Source: Marinomonas rhizomae (GTDB lineage: Bacteria; Pseudomonadota; Gammaproteobacteria; Pseudomonadales; Marinomonadaceae). From it: a stretch of DNA of 64,000 nt. The DNA lies in the NCBI RefSeq assembly GCF_024397855.1, contig NZ_CP073343.1, positions 1,612,001 to 1,676,000 on the forward strand, in the 5' to 3' direction. Numbering within the stretch: position 1 is the stretch's first letter; each line of letters starts with the position of its first letter. The notes under the pieces are model-generated. The model did no database searches. It was not told where the DNA came from and saw only the letters and a program-made list of their open reading frames with translations. This document shows, piece after piece, positions 2,418 through 64,000 of the stretch. Both the position numbers and the translations under genes were made by a program.

Positions 2418-3589
2418 AGTGTTTCCTGCTTTTGAGGTATTGCAGAGTCAGTGCTTGATGTGTTTTCACTTACTACTTTTACAATGTCGCCTTCACTAAG
2501 AAAGCCTGCTCCTTGATTTATGATGGTAGCCTCGGCCTTTATGTTACCTGTGACCTCGATAAAATCGCCTTGACGGCGTGCTACTTCGACAGGGCGTTGT
2601 ATTACTTGCTGGGTTGCCGCAACCAGCTCAAACACATAGCTGCGGCCATCACGGATTACCACGCTGGCAGCGGGTACAACAAGTGCTGATGTTTTATTGA
2701 GTTGAAGCGTCCCAGTGGCAAACATGCCAGCACGAGCTTGGTTATTCGGCTCAATGGTCGCATACGCTGTGATCATGCGGTTCTGTGGGTTCATGGTGGG
2801 TGCAATCTGGCGTACGTAAGCTGTCGCCGTACTATTATTAGCAAGATCAAGTGTCACTTTTTGACCTATTGCTAGTTGCGTTGCTTGCATTGCGGTCAGT
2901 TGACCATGCCATTCAATGCGGTTGTCTCGAATGAGGCGGAACAGTTCTTGTCCCACTGAGCCTATAGCGCCAAGCGTCGCGGAGCGCGAGCTAATAACAC
3001 CATCGTCAGGAGCAACGACATTGATATAACTTAATTGCAGCGTATTCGATGCGAGCTGAGCTTTAACCGCCGCTACTGCAGCGGCTGTGGTCTGTTTCTG
3101 GGTCTCGGCTTGTAACAAACTTTGTCTGCTGATGCCGCCTGTTTGGCTAAGGGCAAATGCTCTTTTGTAATCTACATAAGCTTGTGTCACTAAAGCGGAT
3201 GCTTCATCAAGATTCGCTTTTAATAGGGTTCTTTCATTAATAAGGCTAGCGCTATCAAAGCGAGCAATGATTTGTCCCTTTGTTACTGAGTCACCCACAT
3301 CGACCAATACGTCCACTAACCGTAATCCAGTAAGCTGAGCGCCAATGATAGCTTCCTGCCAAGCGACGATGTCTCCCGATGCTTGAAGACTGCTGTGCCA
3401 TTCTAGTGAGCGTATTTTGGACGTCGTCACAGTGAGTGCCGCTTCTGCTTTTATGATGTTGTCAGATGCTTGAACTGGCGACGAAAAATACAGTGCTGCA
3501 ACTAGACTACTGCTTGCCACTAGAGCGATAAGCAGTACGTTTTTGTGTGTTGAAATTTTTGTTGTCCCCCATCGGTTGGTGATACTCAT
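2414..3589 (-). CDS. RND efflux periplasmic adaptor subunit (membrane fusion protein)
   Basis: Adaptor that bridges the inner-membrane RND pump and an outer-membrane channel. The 391-aa product has an N-terminal signal/anchor helix (about residues 17-41), then a biotinyl-lipoyl-like segment (GAQLTGLRLVDVLVDVGDSV, near 83-102), an alpha-helical hairpin rich in Ala and Gln, a second lipoyl half (INVVAPDDGVISSRSATLG) and a beta-barrel domain. This order and length fit the HlyD/AcrA class. It lies first in a two-gene operon with the permease, with a 4-bp overlap. No outer-membrane channel gene is seen here; it may lie left of the window or be shared. A long inverted repeat sits just upstream. Confidence 0.93.
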   Translation of the reverse strand: MSITNRWGTTKISTHKNVLLIALVASSSLVAALYFSSPVQASDNIIKAEAALTVTTSKIRSLEWHSSLQASGDIVAWQEAIIGAQLTGLRLVDVLVDVGDSVTKGQIIARFDSASLINERTLLKANLDEASALVTQAYVDYKRAFALSQTGGISRQSLLQAETQKQTTAAAVAAVKAQLASNTLQLSYINVVAPDDGVISSRSATLGAIGSVGQELFRLIRDNRIEWHGQLTAMQATQLAIGQKVTLDLANNSTATAYVRQIAPTMNPQNRMITAYATIEPNNQARAGMFATGTLQLNKTSALVVPAASVVIRDGRSYVFELVAATQQVIQRPVEVARRQGDFIEVTGNIKAEATIINQGAGFLSEGDIVKVVSENTSSTDSAIPQKQETL

Positions 3590-55964: not shown

Positions 55965-56078
55965 AGGTTGATAAGCATTTGGCCTAGGTTCTGTAGGATT
56001 GACTAAAAATAGATTGTTTTTTTATCAGCCCCAATTTTCACAAGATAACAAACGACCGAAATGAAAACCATATTGAAG

Positions 56079-56120
56079 TGACCCCCAATAGTTGGACAAC
56101 CAATATCGGGGGGGCTTTTT
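56079..56120 (+). terminator. Hairpin after SDR copy 2, overlapping an IS3-like end sequence
   Basis: TGACCCCCAATAGTTGGACA (56079-56098) resembles the terminal repeat of IS3/IS150-type elements. Its CCCCCAATA pairs with TATCGGGGG and a T-run follows (56116-56120), so the piece now can end transcription from the SDR gene. No IS3 transposase remains. Confidence 0.55.
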
Positions 56121-56131
56121 ATGTCAAATCT

Positions 56132-57007
56132 CTAATATTCTAACGCCATTTTAGCCATTTTCATGGTGTTTTCAAATGACGCGCAGCCAGCGATAAATAA
56201 GCCGTTATGACAGAACATGGCGTCGTCTAACCCAGTGACGTCTTGTAGTTCTTTGTCGGACAATCCGGCCCATGGCGCAGGAAGTTTTTTGCGGTCTTCA
56301 AAGGAACCAAGCTCAACAGGGACGGTTTGTATGCGCCATTGCCCTGTTTGCGATGGGTAAACCATGAAAAGAGCGTCTTGCGATAATCTAAGTACGGTGG
56401 TTTTCCAAGGTGTGTATTTTTCTAACACGATGACTCTTGGGTCTTCGGCTTTTTCAATGGCGTTGGCGACGATGGTTTTTGCGTTTACGCCACCGCTAGC
56501 TGCTGCTATAAAGCGAGTCAAGATGCGTGATGCAAAGGTAACGGCTTCATCAAAACAGGCGTCGAAATCGCCTTCTTCTTGCCAAGTCGGGTTAAACATG
56601 GAAATGGTTTGACTGAGGCTAATACCTGTTTGCACGCCTTCTACGTGTCCACAATCGATGGCGTCGATGGTGGAGACAAGATTTTTATCTAATGAATTCG
56701 TAACTTCTTTGTCACCTGCGCATATTTCTAGACCGTACTTTTGCCAAATTAAACCAAAAGATGAGAATGGAATACCGTTTTCTCGTGCGCCTGCACCGCC
56801 TTTTTGGTGGTGGTCAAAACGGCCTTGTTCTGCGTCGTAAATACCACCTACGTCAAGCACTATGTCGGCTTCGGCCATGACGTCTAGGTTACGTGTGCGT
56901 ATTATTTTTGCAGACGGAAAAAGGTGTTTAAGCGCCGCTACGGCAAATACGTCGTCTGCGTGAAAGTTGCCATTGTGCGTCGCGATTACTTGAACTTGTT
57001 CGGTCAT
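56132..57007 (-). CDS. MYG1-family metal-dependent hydrolase
   Basis: 291-aa DHH-type protein. VIATHNGNFHADDVFAVAAL and DVGGIYDAEQGRFDHHQKGG contain the metal ligands; TIDAIDCGHVEG and the C-terminal GLSDKELQDVTGLDDAMFCH with HNGLFIAGCASFENTMKMAK are typical of this family (UPF0160/MYG1, 3'-5' RNA exonucleases in eukaryotes). The intact copy; fragments A and B of other alleles lie to the left. Confidence 0.93.
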   Translation of the reverse strand: MTEQVQVIATHNGNFHADDVFAVAALKHLFPSAKIIRTRNLDVMAEADIVLDVGGIYDAEQGRFDHHQKGGAGARENGIPFSSFGLIWQKYGLEICAGDKEVTNSLDKNLVSTIDAIDCGHVEGVQTGISLSQTISMFNPTWQEEGDFDACFDEAVTFASRILTRFIAAASGGVNAKTIVANAIEKAEDPRVIVLEKYTPWKTTVLRLSQDALFMVYPSQTGQWRIQTVPVELGSFEDRKKLPAPWAGLSDKELQDVTGLDDAMFCHNGLFIAGCASFENTMKMAKMALEY

Positions 57008-57421
57008 TCTACAGTCTCTTTTATGGATATCATGTCACTTAACAGCACACAGGTACTAAAGGTCGGGATTTTACTGGTTTTTGGTAGAGGGTAACACCGT
57101 TGATTGTAACAGCATCGAAGACAGGCTTGGGGAAAACCTTAATAACCGTTTGAAACACTGAATTTGTAGGGAAAGGGAAAAGAGAGTCTAGGTGTTGTTT
57201 TGGTTGTTGTGTATGTATTGTTTAGCAATATAAATAGGACTATGATCCCTACAAACCTTACTGTATCGGCCTTTCCGTTATGTTTGAGGTAACTGATTTA
57301 GGCCTTCTAATGTAATTTTTAGCGGCCAGATTTTGTTAACGGGCTTAAACATGGAAGCCCCTGACCGTTCTAGGTATTGTCAAATATCATTGGTTAAGTA
57401 TTACACGTAGAAGAGATTTTT
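57008..57421. other. Gene-free interval between MYG1-family and mscS genes
   Basis: 414 bp separate divergent genes. No ORF with a ribosome site, terminator or repeat of note was seen; it should hold both promoters. Confidence 0.5.
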
Positions 57422-58273
57422 ATGGAAGAGTTATTCGCTCAATTTTGGCAAAATCATTCCAGTACTATTATTACGCTGGGTTATCGAATTGTATTGGCCA
57501 TTGTTATATTTATCGCCAGTTCAGTTATTGCAAAAGCAGTTCGCAAGGCAATACTAAATACAAACTCTAAGCTGCATAAGCTGGATGCCACTCTGACGCC
57601 GATATTTTCAACCGTTGTCAGTTATGCGGTTTATGTGATTGGTGGTGTGTTTATTTTAGATATCTTTGGGGTTAATACTGCCAGTCTTATTGCTTTGGTT
57701 GGTGCGGCTGGTTTGGCTATCGGTTTAGCTCTGAAGGATACATTAAGCAATATTGCTGCCGGGATTATGTTGCTTATATTACGACCTTTCAAAGCTGGCG
57801 ATTTTATTGAATTCGGCTCGACACAAGGCGTGGTGAAAGAAATTAATTTATTCACCTGCGTTTTTGAAACCGTTGATGGTTTATACATTGCTTCTCCAAA
57901 TAGTGTCTTGTGGGGGAACAATATTAAGAACTTCACGCGCAATGGTAAGAGACGAATGGATATTGTTGTCGGTATATCTTATTCGGATTCGATTGATGTC
58001 GGTTTGTCTGTGTTGCAAAAAATTATCGAAACTGAGTCGCGACTCTTGGCGGAGCCTGTTCCTCAGACAATGGTGGTTTCCATGTTGGACAGCTCGGTGA
58101 ATATTCAGCTTAGAGCTTGGGCAAATAATGATGATTATTGGCCGACGTACTGGGATTTAAACAAGCGAGTAAAAGAGTCGATAGAAGCCGCTGGCTTGAC
58201 GATTCCGTTCCCTCAGCGAACCTTGCATGTGGTTAGTGAGCAGGGCGCTCGTGCGTTGAAAGAGACCAAGTGA
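57422..58273 (+). CDS. Small-conductance mechanosensitive channel (MscS family)
   Basis: 283-aa channel that opens under membrane tension to release osmolytes. Three N-terminal helices are followed by the pore helix TM3 with GAAGLAIGLALKDTLSNIAA and GIMLLILRPFKAGDFIEFGS, the MscS signature, then a beta domain and a C-terminal alpha-beta vestibule. Length fits the short E. coli MscS class. A hairpin follows. Confidence 0.95.
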   Translation: MEELFAQFWQNHSSTIITLGYRIVLAIVIFIASSVIAKAVRKAILNTNSKLHKLDATLTPIFSTVVSYAVYVIGGVFILDIFGVNTASLIALVGAAGLAIGLALKDTLSNIAAGIMLLILRPFKAGDFIEFGSTQGVVKEINLFTCVFETVDGLYIASPNSVLWGNNIKNFTRNGKRRMDIVVGISYSDSIDVGLSVLQKIIETESRLLAEPVPQTMVVSMLDSSVNIQLRAWANNDDYWPTYWDLNKRVKESIEAAGLTIPFPQRTLHVVSEQGARALKETK

Positions 58274-58307
58274 TCGTGATTTCATAAGGGTTGTAGTTTG
58301 TAATGTT

Positions 58308-58339
58308 AGCTACCCAAAAAAAGTGTTTTTTGGGTAGCT
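58308..58339. terminator. Hairpin between convergent mscS and DGC genes
   Basis: AGCTACCCAAAAAA (58308-58321) pairs with TTTTTTGGGTAGCT (58326-58339), a 14-bp perfect palindrome with AT-rich core. It can act as a bidirectional terminator. Confidence 0.75.
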
Positions 58340-58354
58340 ATGTTTTGTGTTGGC

Positions 58355-61246
58355 TTATTGCCAAATCTCCACTCGATTGCGGCCTTTGTCTTTGGCGCGA
58401 TATAGCGCCTGGTCTGCCAGTCGAAGCAAGTCTGAATAGTTTTCTACCTGATGTGAAAATGCTACGCCCATGCTGACTGTCATTGTGAGATCAGCCGCTA
58501 TACCACTATAGTCGTAGGTTTCAATACACTGACGTAGATTTTCACAATAAGCTGCCACATCGTCGTAGCTCATGCCTTTGACCATCAGCGTAAATTCTTC
58601 ACCGCCCCAACGAGCAGCGTGTACTTTTTGATCATCAGCAAGACGCTTTAGTTGCTCGGCGAGTGCTTTTATCGCTTTGTCTCCGATCAAGTGAGAGTAA
58701 TGGTCATTTATTCTTTTGAAGTGATCGATGTCCATAATAATCAAGGCAAGTGTGATATCTTTTGACTTTGCTCGAATGAATTTCTCGCTCAGCCATTGAT
58801 CAAAAGCTCGACGATTCGGTAATCCTGTTAATTGGTCTTCATTGGCCTGGCGTTGAAAGTCTTCTGATTGTTGGCGCAAAGCATAAGTTTGTTTCTCAAC
58901 CAGCGCTTTTAGTTTTAGCTCGCTTTGTTGTAGTCGGTGTAAGCGCCATTTTATGCCACTAGCCAACAGTATTAAAACCAAAATTACTAAGCCTATTTGT
59001 ACTTCTAAACGCTGCCAAAAATGAGGTGAAATGGTGAATTCATATACCTCATCTGCATTATTCCAATCACTGTAAGGGTAACGCGCACTGACAAAAAACT
59101 GGTATTTACCTGGTGCTAAATTGGTGTATTCGGCAATCGTGTTCTTGCCTCTAGAAGCCCATTTTTCTTCAAAACCAGCTAACTTTGTTCGATATTCAAT
59201 GCGGGACGACAGAATATATCCTAAGCCTGCATAGTTAAATGACACCCGATTTGTGCCCGCAGGTAAGATGTTTTCTTGATTGGCCGTTAGCTCGACGCCA
59301 TCAGCTGTTATGGATTCTATGGCGATGGGTAAACGAGTGGTATTTTTTTGCGATACACTTGAGCTATCTATCATGGCAACGCCCTTAGCTGTGGCAAACC
59401 ATAGTTTGCCATTTTCCATCGCCACAGCCGCAGGGTTAGATCCTCCATTTGCTTGTGCGCTGGCTAGCCCATCGCTTTCAGAGAAATGCTCAAAAGATAT
59501 CTCTTTTTGTCTTCCTTCAGCGACGGCATGTGCTGCATAGTAATCGATTCTCCAAATGCCGCGATTACTAGTAAGCCAGAGACCGTTTGTACCGTCGTAA
59601 ATGACTTGGAATAATTTATCGATAGGCAACCCCGAGCGTCGTCCTACCAAACCTAGTTGTTCATTTTGTTGGTTATAACGTATTAATCCGCGATCTGTGG
59701 CAATCCAGACGTAGCCTTTTTCCACCCAGAAGCCAAACGCATATTCAGCGTCCTCGAGAGTATGAATTGGCACACTTTTAAAGCCATTTTTGGTCAATTT
59801 AGCCACACCAACGCCCGTTCCAACCCAGATCTGGCCACGGTCATCTTCCGCCAATGCCATAATATAATTGTCAGGCAAGCCATTATATCGAGTAAGTACT
59901 TGTTGTTGTCCGGAAGCGTCTTGTTTAATCAGTCCATTGGTAGTGCCGATCCATAGATTCCCCTGAGAGTCTTCTAAAATAGATCTGACTTCATCACTGG
60001 GTAAGCCATTTTTATGATCCAACTGAGGTAATAGCCCGTGGTCTTTCCAAAGCATGAGACCATTGAGATAGGTGCCAACCCAAATTCCGCCGTCGCGGCG
60101 CTTGGCAAAACTAAGAACTGAAATAGGGTTGCTGTTATTAGGTAAGGCATTCCGGGCTATATTATTACTGATAATACTCAGTCCTTCACTTGAACCCACC
60201 AAAACGGACTTATCATCAATGTCGATAACGCTACGGACATAATCGCCTATGAGTCTATGTTTCTTGGTCCAAGTGCTAAAAGGCGCTTTACGTAAACGCA
60301 TCAAGCCGTTATTAGTACCAATCCAAATGCTGCCTTCAAAATCCTGCAAGATTGATAGGACACGATTATTTGGTAAGCCAGATCGCGTATTGAGCCTTTC
60401 TAAATGATTATTCGTTAGTCTGATTAAGCCGTTTTTTATCGTACCTAACCAGAGGTTGTTTTCATCGTCTTCCACTAAAGTAGTAATAGCTTCTCCAGCT
60501 AGACTTGGGTGCAATAGCGTGGCGCTTTTATCGCTAATGAAGTAGGCACCTCTTTCTGTGGCCACTAATAGTTGACCATTATGTGTTTCCAGCATGGAAT
60601 AAACGTGTAGGGTTGGTAAATTATATTGCGCTAACACTTCTAATTTACTTTGCCCATTTACCTGAAATAAACCTTTGTTTGTGGCTGCCCAAATTCGGCC
60701 TTTACTGTCTTCCAATAATTTATTAGCACTAATGTTTTGTAATATCCAAGCTTCCTCGCTCACAGCATTTTCAGTACTCGGCTTGGCTCGATGAAATACT
60801 CCCAAGCCTTCAACGGCTACCCAAAGGTCACCTGAGCGGTCTTTTATTAAATGGTTGATCATACTCGGAGCGGCAAAATGTGGCTGCCAAGTATTGTCTT
60901 TTCGATAGGTAATTCCGCCTTTGACGCCAGCAACCCACAAGCCATTATTGGTATCAGAAACCAAGGCACGAGTTCCGGAATCAAGAATACCTTTTTCTTT
61001 TGAGCGTTCATAAAAACGAAAATCACGGCCGTTATAGCGTGCAACGCCTTCCCAAGTTGCAAACCATAAATAACCGTCGGATGTTTGCGCTATGGCATTG
61101 ATACTATTGTGCGGAAGTCCTTCGTGGGTTGACCAAACATCTTTGAAATAATCAGAAAGTGGAATAGAAGAGTTAGCATGAGCTAAATGAACCGCGCAGA
61201 TCATCAGAATTCCCATTATCACTTTTGACGAATGGATAAGCGTCAT
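58355..61246 (-). CDS. Beta-propeller sensor diguanylate cyclase (Reg_prop, Y_Y_Y, GGDEF)
   Basis: 963-aa membrane sensor. After an N-terminal signal helix come about 14 Reg_prop repeats, recognised by the repeated phrase LWIGT-x-GL / IWVGT, that fold into two periplasmic beta-propellers. A Y_Y_Y domain (YRTKLAGFEEKW), one membrane helix (VQIGLVILVLILLASGIKWR), a short coiled coil and a GGDEF domain with RWGGEEF follow. No RxxD inhibitory site precedes GGEEF, so product inhibition may be absent. Start: ATG 61246 with GAGGG nearby; an earlier ATG would add 29 unlikely residues. Ligand unknown. Confidence 0.93.
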   Translation of the reverse strand: MTLIHSSKVIMGILMICAVHLAHANSSIPLSDYFKDVWSTHEGLPHNSINAIAQTSDGYLWFATWEGVARYNGRDFRFYERSKEKGILDSGTRALVSDTNNGLWVAGVKGGITYRKDNTWQPHFAAPSMINHLIKDRSGDLWVAVEGLGVFHRAKPSTENAVSEEAWILQNISANKLLEDSKGRIWAATNKGLFQVNGQSKLEVLAQYNLPTLHVYSMLETHNGQLLVATERGAYFISDKSATLLHPSLAGEAITTLVEDDENNLWLGTIKNGLIRLTNNHLERLNTRSGLPNNRVLSILQDFEGSIWIGTNNGLMRLRKAPFSTWTKKHRLIGDYVRSVIDIDDKSVLVGSSEGLSIISNNIARNALPNNSNPISVLSFAKRRDGGIWVGTYLNGLMLWKDHGLLPQLDHKNGLPSDEVRSILEDSQGNLWIGTTNGLIKQDASGQQQVLTRYNGLPDNYIMALAEDDRGQIWVGTGVGVAKLTKNGFKSVPIHTLEDAEYAFGFWVEKGYVWIATDRGLIRYNQQNEQLGLVGRRSGLPIDKLFQVIYDGTNGLWLTSNRGIWRIDYYAAHAVAEGRQKEISFEHFSESDGLASAQANGGSNPAAVAMENGKLWFATAKGVAMIDSSSVSQKNTTRLPIAIESITADGVELTANQENILPAGTNRVSFNYAGLGYILSSRIEYRTKLAGFEEKWASRGKNTIAEYTNLAPGKYQFFVSARYPYSDWNNADEVYEFTISPHFWQRLEVQIGLVILVLILLASGIKWRLHRLQQSELKLKALVEKQTYALRQQSEDFQRQANEDQLTGLPNRRAFDQWLSEKFIRAKSKDITLALIIMDIDHFKRINDHYSHLIGDKAIKALAEQLKRLADDQKVHAARWGGEEFTLMVKGMSYDDVAAYCENLRQCIETYDYSGIAADLTMTVSMGVAFSHQVENYSDLLRLADQALYRAKDKGRNRVEIWQ

Positions 61247-61604
61247 TTTTCCCTCATACTTATAAAAATTAGTAACATCAAGTTTGCTTGTGCCCATTAT
61301 TGAAATATATTTTTTAATAGGGGGCGCATTCATAGTTTTACTTTGCTAGTTTTACTATGAAATGAATGTTCATAATGGGTAATAACAAACTTTAGTAAAT
61401 TGGCTGGATACTATCATAAAGCGTTTTACTGAAATGTTTCCAAATGTTACTGAGAGACGATAATGCCTTAAAACTAAGGGGTTAAGTCTAATTATCGACT
61501 GTGTTTTGTGTTGTTTTTGGTATTTTAGAGGGAGCTATAAATTCTGCTTATGGGTAGTGCTTGCAATAAAGGGAAAATATTGTAGTTATCTTTTAATAAA
61601 TAAC

Positions 61605-61640
61605 AGTAAAGACGAGTTTTAATGATCACCCATCTTTACT
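61605..61640 (-). terminator. Hairpin after the M48 gene
   Basis: AGTAAAGA (61605-61612) pairs with TCTTTACT (61633-61640). On the minus strand GTTATTTATT follows, a weak U-tract just past the peptidase stop. The rest of 61247-61604 shows no gene. Confidence 0.5.
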
Positions 61641-61655
61641 ATTCGGATTAAAGAA

Positions 61656-62462
61656 TTAGTAACATTTAGCGCCTTTGTTTTGTTGAATCAAGGATTCATA
61701 AATTGGCATATTTTGAGGTAAATTAGCTTGTAAGTTTTTAATGCGGTTAGCATTTGAGGGATGGGTAGATAGCAACTCAGGCGTTTTGCTTTCTCCGCCA
61801 GCACTCATATTGCGCCACAACTGAACGCTTTCGCGAGGGTCAAAGCCTGCTTTTGCCATGTATTCTAAACCAAGCAAATCGGCCTCAGACTCATGGGATC
61901 GGCTAAAAGGCAAAATAATACCGATTTGTGCTCCAAGACCCAGTGCTTGGAATATCGCGATTTTTTCTGGTGACTCTTCACCGCTTAATTGGTAACCCAG
62001 CGCTAAGGCTTGGCTGGTCGCTAACTGAGTTGAGACTCGTTCATTGCCGTGCCTTGCGATTACATGGGCTAACTCATGACCAACCACCGCGGCCAACTGA
62101 GATTGATTTTCTGCCACTTTTAATAAACCAGTATAAACGCCTACTTTGTAACCTGGCAGAGCAAACGCATTGACCTGATCATCGTTAAACAACACCACTT
62201 CCCAGTCTTGCTTGCGGTATTTATCTGGTAACACTGCAATCAATGAGTCCGCCACACATTGTACTTGCTCACGCAACTTTGCATCTGATGATGCTGGTGT
62301 TTCTTTCTTCATTTCCGTAAAAGACTGAACACCCATTTCATTCATCTGGCTATCAGGCAACACCGCAAACTGTTTACGGCCCGTCGGTGAAGAGCTACAA
62401 CCCACCATTACAACCAACGTCGCCGCCAGAACTGCTTTAAAAGAAACCTTCATAAACACCAT
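61656..62462 (-). CDS. M48 family metallopeptidase, lipoprotein
   Basis: 268-aa zinc peptidase of the LoiP/BepA-like group for outer-membrane protein quality control. The signal ends in a lipobox (VVMVGCSSSP). The active site is VVGHELAHVIARHGNERVS (HExxH), and the third ligand Glu is in SHESEADLLGLEYMAKAGFD. Start: ATG 62462, upstream of a second Met; a more distal ATG at 62513 would place a charged stretch before the signal. Free-standing. Confidence 0.9.
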   Translation of the reverse strand: MVFMKVSFKAVLAATLVVMVGCSSSPTGRKQFAVLPDSQMNEMGVQSFTEMKKETPASSDAKLREQVQCVADSLIAVLPDKYRKQDWEVVLFNDDQVNAFALPGYKVGVYTGLLKVAENQSQLAAVVGHELAHVIARHGNERVSTQLATSQALALGYQLSGEESPEKIAIFQALGLGAQIGIILPFSRSHESEADLLGLEYMAKAGFDPRESVQLWRNMSAGGESKTPELLSTHPSNANRIKNLQANLPQNMPIYESLIQQNKGAKCY

Positions 62463-62602
62463 GATAAAACCGCCTTTAAAAAAACTGCCTAGACTGTTGA
62501 GCTTGACCGCCATTATAGAGAAGGGCTTTCACAAGAAGCAAATGGGGGCTTTTCCAAACCTAGTCATTGTAAGAACGAGATTTAAATGATAAAAATATTC
62601 CC

Positions 62603-62674
62603 ATGAATCCTTTATTAAGTTTTTTTCAATACAGCGCCTCTACCACCACGACCGCAAGGTTGTTTGGAGGGTAG
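62603..62674 (+). CDS. Thr-rich leader peptide of the ThrRS paralogue
   Basis: 23-codon ORF (ATG 62603, stop TAG 62672-62674) whose middle reads STTTTA: codons ACC ACC ACG ACC at 62642-62653. No good ribosome-binding site is visible upstream; -35/-10-like hexamers TTGTAA (62567-62572) and TAAAAA (62590-62595) with 17-bp spacing would put transcription start almost at the ATG, so a leaderless start is possible. The ORF spans the first half of the alternative hairpin system below. Confidence 0.75.
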   Translation: MNPLLSFFQYSASTTTTARLFGG

Positions 62675-62724
62675 CTGCTATTTGATAAAAAAGCCCTCTG
62701 AGCGAATCGCCAGAGGGCTTTTTT
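62640..62724 (+). promoter_or_regulatory. Threonine attenuator: mutually exclusive hairpins and terminator
   Basis: Hairpin 1:2 uses CTACC-a-CCA-CGACC (62640-62653) against GGTTG-tt-TGG-ag-GGTAG (62658-62674) with a GCAA loop, so the Thr codons form its 5' arm. GGAGGG (62666-62671) can instead pair with CCCTCT (62694-62699) as antiterminator. The terminator is AAAAAAGCCCTCTG (62687-62700) against CAGAGGGCTTTTTT (62711-62724). A ribosome stalled on the Thr codons would free region 2 to capture the terminator's left arm; a ribosome at the stop codon would cover region 2 and let the terminator form. Confidence 0.8.
62687..62724 (+). terminator. Leader terminator ahead of the ThrRS paralogue
   Basis: 14-bp perfect stem ending in TTTTTT, with inner GCG/CGC pairing in the loop. 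It lies 62 bp before the ThrRS start, so it must be bypassed for expression. Confidence 0.9.
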
Positions 62725-62786
62725 ATGTCTATACCTTGTTGTTCGCTCAGAGTATTTCACTAAAAATCTTTCGTTAGGAGAAAGGT

Positions 62787-63974
62787 ATGAAAACTCATCG
62801 CGAACTTGCGGAACAACTCGATTTATTCCATTCAGAGCAACAAGCCCCAGGAATGCTATTTTGGCATCCCAATGGCTGGCATTTGTTTCAAAATATACAA
62901 GAGCACATGCGACGCTGTTATCGTCAATATGGCTTTAAAGAAGTGCGTACACCTCAGTTAATGAAAAAAGAGCTATGGCACATATCTGGTCATATGGATA
63001 TGTACGCTCAAGATATGTTCTTTGGTAGCGAGCAAAATGGCGAGCAAGAATACGCTTTAAAACCTATGTCTTGTCCTGCTCATATATTGATGTATAAACG
63101 CGGCGTACACAGCTATCGAGACTTACCACTGAAGCTATTTGAATTTGGTCTAGTGCATCGTAACGAATCATCCGGTTCATTAAATGGTTGTCTAAGGCTT
63201 CGTCAGTTTACTCAAGATGATGCTCATGTTTTTTGTGCTTGGTCACAGGTGAAGCAGGAAGTTGGCCAGTTTCTTCAACGGGCAAAACAAATTTATAACG
63301 ACTACGGCTATCAGGCGCTAGAAGTCAAAATTTCTACTCAACCAGAGAAAGCATTAGGTGACGATGCATCGTGGCGACGTGCGGAAGACATACTTAAAGA
63401 AGCCTGTCAGGCAGAAAATGTTCCCTTCGACATTCAAGTTGGAGAGGGCGCGTTTTACGGGCCAAAAATTGAGCTGGCATTACAAGATGCCGTGGGACGA
63501 ATTTGGCAATGTGGAACAATACAACTGGACTTCAACTTACCAGATCGTTTCGAATTAGAGTTCGACAATGAACAGGGCAAAGCGGAGCAACCTATTATTC
63601 TACATCAAGCTGTTTATGGCTCGATTGAACGCTGGATTGGTATATTGCTCGAAGTCTCACAAGGTGTACTACCTGAATGGATTCACCCGCAACCCGTGGC
63701 ATTAGTTTCAGTTAACGATTCTGTTTTAGATTACGCCAATCAGCTAAGAGCAGAGCTAGAGCAACAAGGCATCAATGTCTCATGTGAATTTGGTGATCAC
63801 TCGGTTGGGCGTAAAATTAAACGCAGTTTCGAACTGAAAATCCCCAACATTATCATAATAGGAGAGCAAGAAGCCCAAGCGGGAAAACTCACAATCCGCA
63901 GAGGCAAACACATTGAAATGATCAACAAGGAAGAACTGATTTCCTTCCTTAAAGCCAAACAAAATTTAAGATAA
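62787..63974 (+). CDS. Threonyl-tRNA synthetase paralogue without TGS and editing domains
   Basis: 395-aa class II synthetase of ThrRS type; a full ThrRS has about 640 aa. The protein starts at the catalytic core (MLFWHPNGWHLFQNIQEHMR, motif 1), with motif 2 VHRNESSGSLNGCLRLRQFT and motif 3 GSIERWIGILLE. The three zinc ligands that recognise Thr are kept: Cys96 (KPMSCPAH), His147 (QDDAHVFC) and His273 (ILHQAVYG), with the same spacings (51 and 126 residues) as E. coli Cys334/His385/His511. The anticodon-binding domain follows (about 295-390). The N-terminal TGS and SAD/editing domains are absent, so mischarged Ser-tRNA could not be cleared in cis. AGGAG precedes the ATG. Expression is probably set by the leader attenuator. 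Confidence 0.93.
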   Translation: MKTHRELAEQLDLFHSEQQAPGMLFWHPNGWHLFQNIQEHMRRCYRQYGFKEVRTPQLMKKELWHISGHMDMYAQDMFFGSEQNGEQEYALKPMSCPAHILMYKRGVHSYRDLPLKLFEFGLVHRNESSGSLNGCLRLRQFTQDDAHVFCAWSQVKQEVGQFLQRAKQIYNDYGYQALEVKISTQPEKALGDDASWRRAEDILKEACQAENVPFDIQVGEGAFYGPKIELALQDAVGRIWQCGTIQLDFNLPDRFELEFDNEQGKAEQPIILHQAVYGSIERWIGILLEVSQGVLPEWIHPQPVALVSVNDSVLDYANQLRAELEQQGINVSCEFGDHSVGRKIKRSFELKIPNIIIIGEQEAQAGKLTIRRGKHIEMINKEELISFLKAKQNLR

Positions 63975-63986
63975 AAGGAGCAAATT

Positions 63987-64000
63987 ATGACCAGCGAAAC
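63987..64000 (+). CDS. Start of a following gene (partial)
   Basis: ATG at 63987 is preceded by AAGGAG with 6-nt spacing, 12 bp after the ThrRS stop. Only MTSE is visible, so no identity can be given. The tight spacing means it is probably in the same transcript and also under the attenuator. Confidence 0.6.

Follow-up and report, generated by a model that had tools for sequence, protein, structure and literature searches.

How is a second, short threonyl-tRNA synthetase (ThrRS) controlled in a bacterium that already encodes a full-length one, and what does the run of threonine codons ahead of its gene contribute to this control? This question is raised by a locus of Marinomonas rhizomae located at the end of the window, the 64,000-nt stretch analyzed here (NZ_CP073343.1, C1:1612001-1676000), which is part of a 4.37-Mb chromosome. 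An earlier note, made from the letters of this DNA, had proposed a leader-peptide attenuator in front of a ThrRS paralogue. Sequence comparison and folding lead us to the same reading: with a probability of about 0.87, a ribosome-mediated transcription attenuator controls this spare, catalytic-core-only ThrRS. Three features go beyond the first reading, namely a promoter-like site close to the leader ATG, a conserved strand located beyond the terminator (62741-62752) and a partition of the Thr codons between leader and gene.

The gene controlled (62787-63974, + strand) encodes a protein of 395 aa, whose assignment as a ThrRS paralogue was borne out by its match to the NCBIfam ThrRS profile TIGR00418 (444.3 bits for a curated cut-off of 383.65) and by the presence elsewhere in the genome of a separate main ThrRS of 645 aa, 41% identical to it. 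Profile matches comprise only a class II core and an anticodon-binding domain (PF00587 and PF03129), a domain search found neither the TGS nor the editing domains of bacterial ThrRS in the paralogue, and the protein aligns to residues 242-629 only of the E. coli ThrRS. The zinc ligands (E. coli C334, H385 and H511) and the active-site Tyr462-Gly463, as these residues are named in passages of PMC11252418, are kept in this alignment. Threonine itself is the most depleted residue of the short ThrRS clade (ratio 0.63), with 5-15 Thr in 69 short proteins among the matches listed, whereas 47 full-length ThrRSs have 14-19 in their last 395 residues. No Thr leader was seen by eye in the 350 bases upstream of the main ThrRS gene.

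The leader of the paralogue contains the 23-codon ORF with four consecutive Thr codons described in the earlier note. It lies on the + strand at 62603-62674 (MNPLLSFFQYSASTTTTARLFGG, followed by the stop codon), its regulatory Thr codons (ACC ACC ACG ACC) occupying 62642-62653. Folding and pairing analyses delineate five strands in the corresponding RNA, all read from the + strand. Strand 1 (62628-62653) overlaps the Thr codons and would form hairpin 1:2 with strand 2 (62660-62672), which codes for LFGG and is also the antiterminator partner of strand 3. Strand 3 (62693-62707) is common to the antiterminator, to the terminator formed with strand 4 and to a pairing with strand 5; strand 4 and the U tract of the intrinsic terminator cover 62708-62724, and strand 5 (62741-62752), complementary to 62696-62707, is found only in read-through RNA. 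The antiterminator 2:3 is a helix of 13 pairs joining 62660-62672 with 62693-62705, within which the GGAGGG at 62666-62671, already supposed to pair with the left arm of the terminator, is correctly placed. The terminator consists of 62693-62700/62711-62718 together with a GCG/CGC inside this stem, a single bulged A and a run of six T (62719-62724); it had been announced as a stem of 14 bp with six T, of which the terminator and the six T stand, the stem being longer once the flanking A-U pairs are counted. The RNA 62600-62730 has a minimum free energy of -50.1 kcal/mol vs -27.9 +/- 3.4 for 200 shuffles (z -6.6). Further downstream, a small CTTTC/GAAAG hairpin (62768-62784) carries the Shine-Dalgarno of ThrRS in the loop; it was recognized by eye (by folding for L001 and L016) in 10 of the 11 Marinomonas leaders, being absent from L021 and present as variants in L014 and L016. 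An ORF starting with TTG (62664-62777), which would couple to ThrRS, was rejected, a TGA closing it in L013 (by eye).

Leader DNA was compared in 20 loci, 11 from Marinomonas, eight from Vibrionaceae and one, with a broken gene, from an Enterobacteriaceae-like genome. The Vibrionaceae label was inferred from protein identity and from main ThrRSs 87-90% identical to that of a Vibrio plasmid record, and the Enterobacteriaceae-like label from a Xenorhabdus match, the L033 protein being 96% identical to a Xenorhabdus protein over 151 residues. Proteins 100% identical were found for L019 (Marinomonas sp. CT5), L021 (M. fungiae), L025 (Photobacterium atrarenae) and L030 (Vibrio sonorensis). According to the earlier note, homologous leaders devoid of the Thr run or of the alternative pairing would speak against an attenuator. 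In the alignment across relatives that it called for, the Thr run precedes the same ThrRS gene in all 20 loci, with four to six Thr codons per leader, and the terminator and antiterminator are kept in 19. The exception is L016 (1368-1512, Marinomonas), which has lost the terminator hairpin and retained the Thr ORF, the T run and strand 5, and is perhaps a natural always-on variant. In the 20 loci, the leader ORF ends with RLFGG, RLLGG, RxLRG or KVFGG before the stop, 70-115 bases upstream of the ThrRS ATG. A pattern running from strand 2 to the terminator, drawn up from these same leaders, was found once each in nine of 47 Marinomonas genomes, always directly upstream of this ThrRS; it is absent from all 37 Marinomonas genomes without the short ThrRS gene, and a reversed control pattern had no occurrence in the 47 genomes. 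The two other gene-bearing Marinomonas genomes are G009, where the hairpin is lost, and G025, which lies outside the 47-genome draw. We regard this conservation, as it appears from sequence comparison, as the decisive evidence for the reality of the leader.

The short ThrRS has a patchy distribution, as it was retrieved (E limit 1e-130) in 11 of 48 Marinomonas and eight of 329 Vibrionaceae genomes, and in one of 392 genomes of an even draw of the Enterobacteriaceae-like family searched with the Xenorhabdus protein. Even draws of the order (244 genomes) and of the class (370 genomes), in which patchy genes can be missed at the same E limit, gave the genome of the window as sole match, as did an even draw of another family (246 genomes), which carries no weight as absence. 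Six named relatives of the ThrRS were found, all from Marinomonas and the closest 99% identical. At least 69 short relatives (P0001-P0069) are present among the best 120 of 7991 protein matches, and the sources among the matches listed include Marinomonas, Photobacterium, Xenorhabdus, Vibrio, Gynuella, Hahella, Pleionea, Scytonema and others; the leader comparison covered the upstream DNA of the 20 loci from Marinomonas, Vibrionaceae and the Enterobacteriaceae-like genome, the more distant short ThrRSs being those of Hahella, Gynuella, Pleionea and other genera. In two loci, L026 and L033, an intact leader precedes a broken ThrRS copy whose match contains a single in-frame stop, and L033 has a tRNA-Sec gene at 2907-2997 (- strand), a possible site of island insertion. 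The neighbours of the unit are partly shared, with downstream genes common to G000, L005, L007 and L010 and upstream neighbours at other distances; L008 shares no neighbour gene of at least 90 aa in a comparison of window positions 56001-64000 with L011 and of L005-L010.

The pairings were evaluated on an alignment of 19 leaders, L016 being left out. Standard pairs fill 99.5% of the cells of the terminator 3:4, 95.5% of those of the antiterminator 2:3 and 91.2% of those of 3:5, for at most 56.0%, 65.1% and 51.8%, respectively, in slid controls; together with the universal Thr run, the first two values uphold the leader-peptide attenuator initially proposed. Pairs with a two-sided change amount to two in 3:4, one in 2:3 and one in 3:5, numbers that 278, 222 and 217 of 500 shuffles also reached, and the measures based on pair counts and pair types were often matched by shuffles for 2:3 and 3:5. 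The number of cells with a two-sided change was reached by none of the 500 shuffles for 3:4 and by one for each of the two other helices. Covariation is thin, the two-sided changes of 2:3 and 3:5 going back to a single event confined to one clade: three Vibrio leaders carry a C-to-U substitution in strand 3, and both strand 2 and strand 5 show the matching G-to-A. Such a double compensation would show the pattern expected of a strand with three working partners.

A predicted promoter, composed of TTGTAA, a 17-nt spacer and TAAAAA with a TG extension (62567-62595, + strand), ends 7 nt before the leader ATG. We defined its geometry as TTG-N17-TA with at least six of the 12 consensus bases and a -10 hexamer that stops 6-8 nt short of the leader ATG, the leader start being taken at a later in-frame ATG in five loci (L016, L021, L027, L031 and L032). 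This geometry is present in 18 of the 20 leaders (not in L030 and L031) vs nine of the 2333 ATGs of the window, a contrast that is somewhat flattering because the geometry was derived from the same leaders and later ATGs were chosen in five of them. An automated scan of the window reported neither promoter nor terminator, the promoter scoring 8/12 for a scan threshold of 9. Since the promoter-like site ends 6-8 nt before the ATG and none of the 20 leaders has a Shine-Dalgarno-like motif before it, transcription probably begins on the leader ATG or at most a few bases from it, and the leader ORF is probably leaderless. Leaderless leader peptides are known from Streptomyces (described in PMC8079986) and from trpL of Sinorhizobium (in PMC7298713).

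Local folding gave energies of -12 to -20 kcal/mol for 2:3 and of -12 to -20 kcal/mol for the terminators, a balance which, in these models, is that expected of an attenuator. In RNA extending through strand 3 and without ribosome, hairpin 1:2 has a probability of at least 0.63 in 14 of 19 leaders, and it is weaker (0.07-0.55) in L021 (0.31), L025, L026, L027 (0.07) and L033; in the window leader (L001), the probability is 0.84 for 1:2 and 0.00 for 2:3 at this stage. When a stalled ribosome is placed on a Thr codon at least 24 nt before the stop, the probability of 2:3 rises to 0.92-1.00 in 19 of 19 leaders. Folding with the Thr codons masked, a check suggested in the earlier note, thus agrees with its proposal, the stalled ribosome favouring 2:3 as long as strand 3 is the last part transcribed. 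Once the RNA reaches the end of strand 4, 3:4 has a probability of 0.94-1.00 in 19 of 19 leaders without ribosome, and 2:3 is preferred with a central stall and without the U tract in 14 of 19 (not in L015, L021, L030, L031 and L032). With RNA that comprises strand 4 and the complete U tract, 3:4 is favoured at equilibrium despite the stalled ribosome in 17 of 19 leaders, and for this reason the predicted switch must be kinetic, relying on the order of synthesis.

The attenuator would then operate as follows. RNA polymerase would start at or a few nt from the leader AUG and a ribosome would load on the leaderless end. When charged tRNA-Thr is ample, this ribosome would pass the ACC codons and reach the UAG where strand 2 ends, leaving 3:4 to form and transcription to terminate. 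When charged tRNA-Thr is scarce, it would stall on the Thr run and mask strand 1, 2:3 would form first and the polymerase would read through, the shortage that matters most being presumably that of the GGU isoacceptor, which reads ACC. Read-through would induce extra ThrRS from an mRNA nearly without ACC, charging would rise and the loop would be closed. The physiological trigger could be a failure of ThrRS, a shortage of Thr or zinc, or a ThrRS inhibitor.

The codon usage of leader and gene is strongly contrasted. ACC, the one Thr codon that the UGU isoacceptor is not known to read, represents 79 of the 106 Thr codons of the 20 leaders vs six of the 160 Thr codons of the 18 intact ThrRS genes, totals that leave out the broken copies L026 and L033. 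The 11 Marinomonas ThrRS genes have no ACC among 81 Thr codons, against 213/759 (28%) in the long ORFs of the window, and the seven intact Vibrionaceae genes have 6/79, against 104/328 (32%) in flanking ORFs, these six ACC belonging to L025 (2/10) and L030 (4/13). The five divergent Marinomonas genes alone give 0/39 (binomial P 2.6e-6, shared ancestry being ignored). At invariant Thr positions the codon shifts among ACA, ACU and ACG, and seldom to ACC. No other C-ending codon is near zero; several two-codon boxes are below background, the lowest being TGC (0.24 vs 0.42). ACC is also scarce in the main ThrRS gene (2/23). According to the selective-charging theory (PMC1183508), which notes eight ACC in the E. 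coli thr leader, the codon chosen in leaders is the one that responds most strongly to starvation, and the split of ACC between sensor and enzyme gene offers a natural test of this theory.

Two alternative readings would give the conserved leader another function. Regulation could be mainly exerted by ThrRS binding to its own leader, the Thr ORF being incidental, as for E. coli thrS, which is autoregulated by ThrRS at the level of translation. A large conserved structure does precede the ThrRS gene, but control of the E. coli type is translational and needs no terminator ahead of the gene; moreover leader length and N-terminal peptide vary among the loci, whereas the Thr run, 2:3, 3:4 and the promoter geometry stay constant. 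Despite the precedent of E. coli ThrRS autoregulation, mentioned in PMC2965389, we hold this explanation to be very improbable. The leader could also be chiefly the source of a trans-acting RNA or peptide, with attenuation of ThrRS as a secondary effect, since the association of a probably leaderless short ORF with a terminator resembles rnTrpL/peTrpL of Sinorhizobium (as presented in PMC7298713). This is hardly credible for a peptide whose first half is not conserved, the conservation of the second half being accounted for by RNA pairing, the more so as the strand 2-terminator pattern is never found apart from this ThrRS gene in the 47 Marinomonas genomes.

Two other readings bear on the function of the paralogue and on what the attenuator senses. 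Like ObaO, it could be a ThrRS that confers resistance to an antibiotic, self-made or not, and the attenuator would then sense the inhibition of ThrRS by a drug; its patchy spread would fit, and a parallel exists in Streptomyces, where Vecchione and Sello reportedly described in 2010 an auxiliary antibiotic-resistant TrpRS under ribosome-mediated attenuation. Yet the substitutions G463S and L489M of ObaO, named in PMC11252418, are absent, Gly and Leu being kept (the equivalent of Leu489 was located by counting from Tyr462 in the alignment), no biosynthesis cluster was seen by eye in the downstream 16 kb, and this possibility appears unlikely. The paralogue could alternatively replace the main enzyme under low zinc, as T2 of Anabaena, with attenuation instead of Zur as the sensor: in this cyanobacterium, low zinc disables the ThrRS T1 and induces T2 (PMC4787780). 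The 69 short relatives listed end with a cyanobacterial ThrRS that has no editing domain (P0069, 47%), and a copy of about 407 aa (L023, 48%) on the Acaryochloris marina plasmid pREC2, typed as conjugative, has genes for a metal-binding protein and a Fur-family regulator nearby, a context that would suit a ThrRS for low zinc carried by a mobile element. The zinc ligands are kept here, although they are in Anabaena T2 too, and T2 retains a degenerate editing domain that is absent here (both points on T2 as given in PMC4787780), so that a replacement function is conceivable but rather doubtful. A sensor made of a Thr leader would register low zinc, a lack of Thr, a damaged main enzyme and an inhibitor, and ribosome-mediated attenuation of a spare ThrRS is the reading that we retain for what follows.

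Within this attenuator, the function of strand 5 is less apparent. A TTCGCTCAGAG-like sequence, complementary to the left arm of the terminator, is recognizable with few changes past the terminator in 20 of 20 loci. Because it is made later, strand 5 cannot affect the first decision of the terminator; it may exchange with strand 2 after read-through or act on translation, two roles to which the predicted folds lend little support. The probability of 3:5 is at most 0.19 in the free fold of the 19 leaders, and with strand 4 blocked 3:5 is common only in L015 (0.84) and L020 (0.80), remaining at most 0.24 elsewhere. Two candidate functions were rejected. For a hairpin between strand 5 and the first codons of ThrRS, the pairing outranks synonymous recodings (0.05 or lower) in six of 20 loci, and it ranks at 0.57-0.88 in four. 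As for a switch of the ribosome-binding site, blocking strand 4 shifts its predicted accessibility by at most 0.07 in 16 of 19 leaders, the exceptions being L028 (0.39 to 0.89), L021 (0.54 to 0.29) and L014 (0.84 to 0.72).

A six-codon ORF encoding MTSETR before its stop begins at 63987 on the + strand, continues past the end of the window (63987-64000; C1:1675987-1676007) and abuts the terminator hairpin of the ThrRS gene. A short ORF directly follows ThrRS in the 11 Marinomonas loci, encoding MTSETR in eight of them, MTCETR in L013, MTTETR in L016 and MEEDTTS in L021, each closed by a stop; inspection of the Vibrionaceae loci by eye did not show it in this form. The mini-ORF has two ACC Thr codons (three in L016) and its UAG overlaps the first base of the terminator hairpin of the gene. 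From its sequence, it could be a second Thr-codon sensor. Its pairing with strand 5 was considered and dropped, with six complementary bases only and no matching change in L014 and L016 (by eye). As a tentative possibility, to which we would not give even odds, the whole could form a five-strand cassette, in which strand 3 has three conserved partners and strand 5 serves as a latch or translation gate of the read-through RNA. It would combine two Thr dialects, the ACC of the leader sensing the GGU isoacceptor and the ACU, ACA and ACG of the gene staying translatable while this isoacceptor is uncharged, with the Marinomonas mini-ORF as maybe a further sensor.

Several known systems share part of these characteristics. 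Alternative pairings and a terminator are present in the leader of the thr operon, as here. This leader (thrL, RF00506) also has a Thr-codon ORF rich in ACC (PMC1183508), but the present one precedes a ThrRS paralogue and not biosynthesis genes, lacks a Shine-Dalgarno and possesses the extra strand 5. The RF00506 model scored 30.4 bits (E 0.0005) at 62615-62727, below the gathering score of 55 and with 27.1 on the opposite strand; it matched the leader strand in four of eight loci (25.2-33.9 bits). No Rfam family reached its gathering score in the window and no T-box was found among the 21 matches at E <=10. The E. coli pheST operon encodes the main synthetase of the cell for its amino acid, not a spare paralogue. 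Like the present gene, it is subject to leader-peptide attenuation, with Phe instead of Thr (PMC4082710, PMC1262725). A further precedent is the thrL-thrS of Streptomyces lividans, where a leaderless Thr leader peptide precedes a ThrRS gene; in its description in PMC8079986, that peptide has two Thr only, termination is reported as unclear and the gene is given simply as thrS. In Streptomyces, leader-peptide attenuation is also mentioned for leuS and, as a candidate, for trpS2 in PMC1262725; the auxiliary TrpRS is similar to our case by the ribosome-mediated attenuation of an auxiliary synthetase, and differs by its amino acid (Trp), its drug-resistant enzyme and its occurrence in Actinobacteria. 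Paralogues of hisS located behind a cognate leader peptide were likewise predicted from sequence in Firmicutes, for His (PMC2965389). The idea of an attenuator is less unprecedented because the S. lividans Thr leader-thrS and other synthetase leader peptides are already known; in the open-access literature, most subscription papers being outside the search, we found no description of this leader or of the short gammaproteobacterial ThrRS.

Although the switch belongs to a known type, relatives from three bacterial families have retained it, and some of its features are unusual. The probable leaderless leader and the strand lying past the terminator raise new questions on the working of attenuators in Gammaproteobacteria. 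The locus represents a compact cassette of patchy distribution, which apparently couples a synthetase paralogue to the degree of charging of its own tRNA.
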